Positions 11,501 to 14,500 of a stretch of DNA of 64,000 nucleotides are shown piece after piece (position 1 is the stretch's first letter; every line of letters begins with the position of its first letter). The stretch lies in the NCBI RefSeq assembly GCF_910592395.1, contig NC_088317.1, positions 868,001 through 932,000 on the forward strand. The letters are read 5' to 3'. A program made the translations under genes and the position numbers. Source of the stretch: Lineus longissimus (taxonomy: Eukaryota > Nemertea > Pilidiophora > Heteronemertea > Lineidae). The notes beneath the pieces are model-generated. The model made no database searches. It saw nothing but the letters and a program-made list of their open reading frames with translations, and had not been told where the DNA came from.

Positions 11501-14500
11501 GTGTCTGGGCTTCTTACGCTACTGGAAACGATCGCTGCACAAGTTTGAGTTGCTGCTGGCCATCGGGACGTCACTGCACCTCATTCCAAGTCTATACAGG
11601 TCAAACAGTCAACTCACATATTTCCAGGTATGCAGTTATCTAGGCTGACCGTCAACTCTCTTGGTTTGACCCACCACCTGTTGCTCTATAGTTACAAGCA
11701 GGCTTTGATCGCATCAGGCTTTATACAATACCAACATAGGTTGATTTCTCCTTGCTGGTTTTGGCCTATCGACTCCATGAAAGCTGCTTCGTGGGGGTTG
11801 ATCTTATCAAGATTTCCCTGAAAACACTTCGATAAGAGAGTAGGGGAGCAGAGTAAAGGTAGACTAAGTTTGTTGAGCCTATAGTTTCATTTTGATCTTG
11901 CAGTGTCTGCGTGTGGTCCGCCTCATCAAGGCTTCACCGATGTTGGAGGACTTCTGCTTTAAGGTAAGTCAAGTTTGAACCTCAGCCTCAGATGTACAAG
12001 ATGAGCACAGCTGACAAACCAACTGTAAAAGCCGTCACTTTTCTCACCGCTATATTTGCAGTAATTTGGATGTAAATACATTTCGTCATCTCCATTTCAG
12101 ATCTTTGGCCCCGTGAAGAAGTTAGGAAGTCTTGTGCTGTTTACCATGTGTTTGTTGATTATCACGTCCAGCATCAGCTTACAATTATTCTGCTTCGTCA
12201 AGGACTTCGAGCGGTTTGATACATTCCCGCAGGTGAGTCGTCGACCTCTCTGTCTTGTGTTCATTTTCAGCCACTCAGAGTTTGCACAATGGAGGGTTAA
12301 GTGTCTTTTTTTGGACACAGGGATAGACCAACATAATTAGTCCTCTTAGTCCCTGGTGCTGGGGCATCAGGCCTTAGGGATGGACCAAAATGTGTTGTTA
12401 ATGTTTTAAAGTGTAAATATAATTTGATCGTGTCAAGTGTTAGTGAGTGCATGTTGATGTTGTAGTCCTCCTGGAGGAGGGTGTTGTAATGGCAAAGCAT
12501 AGGTATGACCAAGAAATTACCTGCGAATGCCAGAAAATGAGAGCGCGTTTTGGGCCAATCTGCAAAGCCATGTGGTTGGAGAGCCCTCTTAACGGTTGTT
12601 ATTGAATCCTGTGTTATTTGTGCATAAACCAGTCTGATAACTGGAATCATTTCGATGTTGAAATCCTTCAGGAAATAAATAATGGCCCCTATTGTGACTT
12701 AGTTGTTTAAGTGTAGCGTATGTGTATTGTGATGGATGTTGTTGGAATGTTGTCCTGGTTTGTGTCCTTGTCTTGCTCGCTGTAGTTGAGTCTTGATGTT
12801 GTCCATTCTCCCGTTAAGGCCTACGTCAGCATTTTCAAAATTCTTACCCAAGAATCGTGGACGGAGGTTATGGTGGAGACTATGCAGAAGGTTCACCAAC
12901 ACACCGGTACGCACTACGCCGTAATACCGGTCGCTGTGTTGTTTGTCACTTACCATATGGTTCTCAGTGTGGTGAGTAAAAAGGGCAATGGTGCGGCTTT
13001 TTCAGTGGTCAAGGAGAGCTGAACTCACTGCTTGGGCAACGATAGGCTGTGACACTCATTTCTCCTTGTCACTCTTGAAAAGCTAGCACACTTACTAGTA
13101 GATTGCTCTGCAAGCGCATGGAACAATAGAGATCTTTGCATGGGCTTTCTTTGTCACACTGTATGTAAACATATCTAGTCTCTCCTCATTTTGTGTTTTT
13201 TCTCCCTTAATTATCTTGCTTGTTAGGCCTTTACGTCAATGTTCCAACTTCTAACAAATGAAGCGTGGACCGAGATTATGATTGAGACTATGCAGGCGGT
13301 TAACGAGTATGCAGTTATCCCTGTGGCGGTCATCTATGTCGTTTATCATAACATTATAAGTGTGGTAAGTACTGCCTCCTATTGGCAGGCATGGCTGTGT
13401 TGGGCTTGGACACTGCTACAGACACTAATCATCTCCTGATTACAGCTGAGACTATGTCCTGTTTATGTTCCTGCATGCGTCTGGCTCGCTTTTTGTTTTT
13501 GTTATGTTGATCAGACAATCCCACTGAACACAGTTATATCTAAAGGGCAGTTTAACACCCCATTTGTTTCTTCCCTTGAGTTTCAGTGAAGACTAGAATT
13601 ACTCATCCAGTTGCTCAGACTTTTTGTCCCAAATACATTTATAACTTCTTGTTTTCCAGCTTTCTAGTTTCTAACAGCTAACCTACAACAGTCTTTAATT
13701 CACCACTTCAAATAGGAAATTGAGAAGTAGGGGCAAGCCTCAAACTGAATATTATGCCAAATTTAATTTTTGTGATACTTTTGAATTTGATCCTCGCCCA
13801 AAGTTTATCTCTTTGGGAGAGCTTTTGAGAAGAGTGGTGAATGAGAAAGGTCTGTTGTGGCTGACTAACCCCTCCCCCTCCCCCCAACCCCAAGCTAATT
13901 ATTCTTTCTCCCCTTGCTATTCCATGCTGCAGGCCTTCATGTCCATGTTTCAAATCCTGACCCAGAAAGGTTGGGTCGAGGTGATGCACGTCACCATGTG
14001 GAAAACGGGCGAGCGGTTTGCACCGCTCGTCGCCATCTATTTCATAGGTTATCACTTGTTTGTTACGCTGGTGAGTACCGTTTGCTGCCACTAGGTGGAG
14101 GTCACACTTTATGATCCTTTTTTGACGTTGTGTGATCTTATAGCAGCAATTCGAAACTGGTTGATGTCGTTTTTGTCGATGTTAGATGATAGATTATTGT
14201 TATGCATCGTAGTAGATCGCTGTTCACTCTGTTGAATTCAGGTTGGAGGCAAACGACACATTTCTAAATCCAAGTTCCCTCCTGCACTTGTTCTTCTATT
14301 CAGTTATCTTTTCTTACCCCCAGTACACTTGGCTCCGACCGAACCATGCGCATCTCCGCACTGACATCTATGGAACTCATCAAGAACTTCAGTCATGGCA
14401 TTCAGTTACCCATAACCTATAACGTTTAATGGTGTATTACAAATTAGGGGGGCCCAAATTACCTTCCCCTCCCCTCGGCCACTGTCCAGAAGGTAGAGTT

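Follow-up and report, generated by a model that had tools for sequence, protein, structure and literature searches.

We report herein that the NALCN gene of the nemertean Lineus longissimus carries three homologous exons in a row (11a, 11b and 11c) for the pore of domain II, two with Glu and one with Lys at the selectivity filter. We think it likely that these are alternative exons, that the Glu exon among them has been duplicated, and that each working transcript takes up one of the three. NALCN helps to set the resting potential and is mostly encoded by a single gene. Alternative exons 15a (Glu) and 15b (Lys), arranged in that order, were described for flatworms, molluscs, annelids, echinoderms and hemichordates in PMC3557258 (Senatore et al. 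2013), and the two exons recur in later reviews (PMC4436565, PMC6259924). The initial annotation of this DNA had credited Senatore and colleagues with the report of two domain II exons giving EEEE and EKEE filters, and this paper indeed contains it. A third exon had been held to go beyond what was known; the open-licence NALCN literature (titles and beginnings of abstracts) yielded no earlier description of NALCN from a nemertean or of a domain II with three such exons, and a term search of the available text of PMC3557258 returned neither "exon 15c" nor "brachiopod".

The NALCN gene and its domain II cassettes

The stretch of DNA analysed, referred to as the window, is 64,000 nucleotides long and contains the NALCN gene of L. 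longissimus. Its best protein match is P0001 (NALCN-like, isoform X2, 1829 aa), whose exons lie in order along the window from 8525 to 29997. In the spliced match, 31 of the 33 P0001 junctions tested were exact, with zero mismatches; the two without exact resolution, both in domain IV, were excluded from splice scoring. Among solved channels P0001 is nearest to NALCN, the chains of which it matches with 2103 bits, compared with 327 bits for the best other channel. NCBIfam, a library of bacterial and archaeal families, assigned P0001 to none of them, as would be expected. In P0001, domains I, III and IV each have a Glu in the filter, and the motifs of the gene (SQEGW in domain I, QESW, NEAW or QKGW in domain II, SLEGW in domain III and TGEDW in domain IV) follow the pattern E(E/K)(E/K)E with an Asp after the domain IV Glu. 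The features of the gene that matter here are as follows.

8525..8815, plus strand: first coding exon of NALCN, with the start codon at 8525 (exact match to P0001 residues 1-97)
10408..10550, plus strand: domain I pore exon, filter SQEGW (Glu) (P0001 match, filter motif)
12101..12232, plus strand: exon 10, domain II ahead of the pore loop, donor in phase 0 (P0001 spliced match)
12819..12971, plus strand: exon 11a, 51 aa, for the pore loop of domain II and the beginning of S6; filter QESW, Glu followed by Ser; loop HQHTGTH (reading frame, P0001, tree)
13227..13364, plus strand: exon 11b, 46 aa, the second of the Glu copies; filter NEAW, Glu followed by Ala; not in P0001 (reading frame, profile match)
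13933..14070, plus strand: exon 11c, Lys copy, QKGW, 46 aa, grouped with the known exon 15b (reading frame, P0001, tree)
15434..15582, plus strand: exon 12, remainder of domain II S6 onward, acceptor in phase 0 (P0001 spliced match)
22842..22962, plus strand: domain III pore exon, filter SLEGW (Glu) (P0001 match, filter motif)
24661..24906, plus strand: domain IV pore exon, TGEDW (Glu, Asp at +1), start approximate, donor exact (P0001 match, filter motif)
29722..29997, plus strand: last coding exon of NALCN (P0001 match)

The cassettes are 153 nt (11a), 138 nt (11b) and 138 nt (11c) long, and each is open throughout, has a length divisible by three, begins and ends in phase 0, and lies between an AG and a GT; the introns around them, from exon 10 to exon 12, measure 586, 255, 568 and 1363 nt. 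Because of their phase and length, the cassettes can be interchanged without a shift of frame, and both their boundaries and this in-frame interchange match exons 15a/15b. For example, the segment in the Biomphalaria model has the same ends as the Lineus cassettes, and Saccostrea models X3/X4 and X1/X2 differ exclusively within the cassette segment. The coordinates, phase and filter motifs initially assigned to the three exons are right at the base level, and the spliced match to P0001 bears out the end of exon 10 at 12232 and the extent of exon 12 (15434-15582). The filter rings predicted for the channel are EEEE with 11a, EEEE with 11b and EKEE with 11c.

A profile made from 36 exon segments, all of them from animals other than Lineus, was searched against the 2770 six-frame ORF pieces (at least 15 aa) of the window. 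It recovered 11c at E = 5.2e-28, 11b at E = 1.5e-15 and 11a at E = 2.2e-12, and the homology of the cassettes is not due to chance. Three other pieces with E <= 1 (8e-5, 0.0047 and 0.12) contained pore segments of the same gene, from domains III, IV and I, respectively, and at the same threshold no fourth domain II copy appeared among the ORF pieces of either strand. The view that these are homologous in-frame cassettes of NALCN domain II is upheld. A tblastn search of the window with P0001 (E <= 0.01) detected no second pore exon for domain III.

Several other features of the locus were observed. A 122-bp tandem array of 2.5 copies (21291-21597) repeats the 3' splice site and the beginning of the domain III S3-S4 exon, the true copy of which occupies 21514-21681. 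The acceptor of the upstream copy, at 21392, scores at least as high as 28-29 of the 29 other acceptors, and the frame that follows stops at a TGA 28 codons on. Splicing at this acceptor would thus yield a truncated channel; the copy may act as a poison splice site or be a neutral duplication. Outside the gene, two ORF pieces at 811-1560 on the minus strand match the Arf family (PF00025), pointing to an Arf-like GTPase gene upstream of NALCN on the opposite strand, and an ORF piece at 45798-46160, also on the minus strand, matches the sulfatase family (PF00884). On the plus strand, 49505-52159 is an open frame of 885 aa with many charged residues, for which Pfam gave no match at E <= 0.01; the stretch that holds most of it (48001-52000) has a GC skew of 0.34.

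Probable descent and maintenance of the three copies

A maximum-likelihood tree was computed from 39 exon segments over 55 alignment columns. Its input came from 33 proteins (P0001 included) of the best 120 of 768 homologous proteins, plus three more; one Haliotis model was excluded as being of low quality. The Lys exons formed one clade of 14 that contains 11c (UFBoot 98), and 11a and 11b together were split from all other segments with UFBoot 100, a pairing that long-branch attraction could inflate, as both lie on long branches. A stretch of 66 nt with 77% identity between 11a and 11b argues against such attraction. These two cassettes share 28 of 46 aligned residues and 94 of 138 nt, and 11c shares 19 of 46 residues with 11a and 18 of 46 with 11b. 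Judged from these sequences, 11c is best read as the known Lys exon 15b, and 11a and 11b as copies that arose when the Glu exon 15a was duplicated within the lineage. In the alignment to the pore exons of other animals, which the initial annotation had suggested, 11c groups with exon 15b, and 11a and 11b look like two copies of 15a. Among the homologous proteins listed, that of Tubulanus contains the Lys segment alone.

That haplotypes or copies of one exon were misplaced in tandem during assembly is extremely improbable. Nothing at the cassettes speaks for such an artefact; the 122-bp array is evidence of repeats elsewhere in the gene, and the only direct-repeat family of at least 25 nt across 12200-15500 sits within the 11a/11b pair. 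An assembly duplicate was rejected because the cassettes are too diverged: 11a and 11b differ at 44 of 138 nt, and 11c differs from either at 66-67 of 138.

With 51 residues, 11a exceeds 11b and 11c by five. The initial annotation took this for an insertion; the extra length is real, and its novelty in 11a is doubtful given the Glu exon of the annelid Owenia, which is also 51 residues long, has TG at the same two places as 11a and VIP further on, and aligns with 11a without gaps at 24 of 51 identical residues. This comparison involves one annelid Glu exon, in a model that departs from the usual NALCN sequence just past the exon. The tree places Owenia beside 11a and 11b with a support of 77; the value of 100 for all three is an effect of re-rooting. 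The length of the loop varies elsewhere as well, the segment having 50 residues in Penaeus and 49 in Saccostrea. By this comparison, the five extra residues may be old and have been lost by 11b, rather than gained by 11a.

Between 11a and 11b, dN was 0.30 and dS 1.07, giving a dN/dS of about 0.28. In a codon bootstrap of 1000 runs, of which 961 gave a defined ratio and 39 an undefined one, the 95% range was 0.09-0.70, and 4 of the 961 reached 1. With such a ratio both Glu copies appear maintained, and this estimate, drawn from 46 codons, suggests that the two have long been kept as coding sequence.

Splice sites and probable splicing of the cassettes

Each splice site was scored, in a leave-one-out manner, against 29 other sites of the gene, using a 23-base acceptor model and two shorter models. 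The acceptors of 11a, 11b and 11c equalled or exceeded only 3, 1 and 3 of the 29 others, respectively, in the 23-base model, and 4, 3 and 3 in the two shorter models. The donors were ordinary, reaching 19, 21 and 21 of 29. Pyrimidine fractions in the acceptors were ordinary too (0.82, 0.71 and 0.71 for 11a, 11b and 11c, against 0.59-0.94 in the others), so part of the low acceptor score comes from single positions. Weak acceptors combined with ordinary donors suit regulated exons, and are no proof of regulation.

P0001 joins 11a to 11c in frame and omits 11b; it is a single model out of a cluster of six sequences. When about 5.8 billion proteins were searched with the region of 11a, P0001 alone was found, and with the region of 11b there was one word-sharing candidate and none at E <= 10. 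This search depends on shared exact words and displays cluster representatives, and would therefore miss distant relatives and close isoforms. Cassette 11b might be taken for a relic, a formerly used Glu exon that is no longer spliced, next to an ordinary two-exon E/K system made of 11a and 11c; its absence from P0001, its acceptor score, the lowest of the three in the 23-base model, and the empty protein search all fit such a reading. We nonetheless regard it as improbable. The frame of 11b is open, its GT-AG sites are intact, its donor is good, and the filter Glu and Trp are retained. In addition, a dN/dS of 0.28 relative to 11a speaks for constraint, and at a dS of about 1 damage would be expected unless the exon had died recently.

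The in-frame junction of P0001 also raises the question of whether the cassettes exclude one another. If 11a and 11c were spliced together, the product would carry a second pore loop and half of an S6, and would be non-conducting or regulatory. A snail model, P0030 (Biomphalaria NALCN), likewise has Glu and then Lys domain II segments in tandem, so that the arrangement may reflect a recurring habit, or error, of gene prediction, or else real double inclusion. Double inclusion is very unlikely in our view. A doubled pore loop is at odds with the fold of a four-domain channel. Moreover, the Lymnaea cDNAs reported in PMC3557258 contain two mutually exclusive domain II variants, and four Saccostrea models carry a single cassette each. 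As for what might enforce exclusivity in Lineus, no such feature was found: the splice sites are GT-AG, and double inclusion and skipping both keep the frame. Steric exclusion needs introns shorter than the 255 nt and more present here. A search for docking-site pairing within the introns gave no signal beyond that of shuffled sequences, the observed value being reached in 4 of 20 and 4 of 10 shuffles.

We return to three alternative exons with a duplicated Glu copy as the likely explanation. The ancestral state would be the ancient Glu/Lys pair, exons 15a/15b of the literature, and in the lineage leading to Lineus a tandem duplication of the Glu exon would have given rise to 11a and 11b. Each working transcript would most likely join exon 10 to exon 12 through one of the three cassettes, lining the channel with an EEEE ring from 11a or from 11b, or with an EKEE ring from 11c. 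In this reading 11b would be used in transcripts and the three cassettes would be mutually exclusive.

Filter residues and relation to known pore exons

In a 2023 paper, every animal NALCN is said to have a Gly after the filter residue of domains I-III (PMC10120453). Cassette 11c has this Gly, and 11a (Ser) and 11b (Ala) depart from the rule. Among the best 120 of 768 homologous proteins, 120 matches to the domain II motif were detected in 118: EA in 67, EG in 37, KG in 15 and ES in 1; these proteins are the top of one search, rich in arthropods, and not a survey. All 67 EA hits in this sample go together with a Lys in domain III, and 12 of the EA proteins, inspected by identifier, are insects by name. 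The rule thus fails in accepted NALCNs as well, and the presence of Gly cannot decide membership of the family. The single ES hit is Lineus 11a, and EG is found in each of the other 15 hits that combine a domain II Glu with a domain III Glu. Within these 120 proteins, 11a, along with the genomic 11b, provides the only Glu-Glu pores without a Gly after the filter Glu.

The residue that follows the filter Glu (Ser versus Ala) and the loop at the mouth of the pore would set the two Glu isoforms apart, both from one another and from the remaining Glu-Glu pores of the sample. In 11a this loop, HQHTGTH, has three His, the most among the 39 segments, the next highest number being two (Lingula). Going by filter composition, the Glu pores would be expected to admit more divalent ions and the Lys pore to favour sodium; the initial reading of two calcium-channel-like pores and one sodium-channel-like pore is likewise a prediction from filter residues. 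A further step, which we put forward as rather doubtful, would be that the gene makes a sodium-preferring EKEE leak with 11c and two distinct EEEE leaks, that of 11a being sensitive to metals or pH through binding of zinc or protons by HQHTGTH.

The system is the known E/K cassette with an extra copy. It shares with exons 15a/15b, as described in PMC3557258, the same cassette (domain II pore loop to the start of S6), the order of Glu before Lys, and the EEEE and EKEE rings, and differs from them in having three cassettes with Glu doubled, and Ser or Ala rather than Gly after the filter Glu. Exons 31a/31b of myriapods and chelicerates, found in the same source, are likewise tandem E/K pore exons of NALCN; they belong to domain III, whereas the Lineus cassettes belong to domain II and the one pore exon found for its domain III has Glu. 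The alternative exons 12a/12b of invertebrate Cav3 channels also lie in domain II and change the ion preference of a four-domain channel (PMC4436565, PMC9694082). According to PMC4436565, those exons encode the turret ahead of the filter and not the filter itself, which in Lineus is held by the cassettes.

Why a calcium-like and a sodium-like pore are both retained in many invertebrates through the exchange of one exon is an open question in print (PMC4436565), and the discoverers of the E/K exons could neither separate the NALCN currents of the snail isoforms from background leak nor measure whether these isoforms prefer calcium or sodium (PMC3557258). Cassettes 11a and 11b bear on the published statement that Gly always follows the filter residue in domains I-III (PMC10120453). 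The duplication of the Glu cassette, with copies that differ beside the filter, provides nature's own comparison of three cassettes within a protein that is the same in all other parts. If 11b is spliced in, it would allow a single leak-channel gene to make three different pores.
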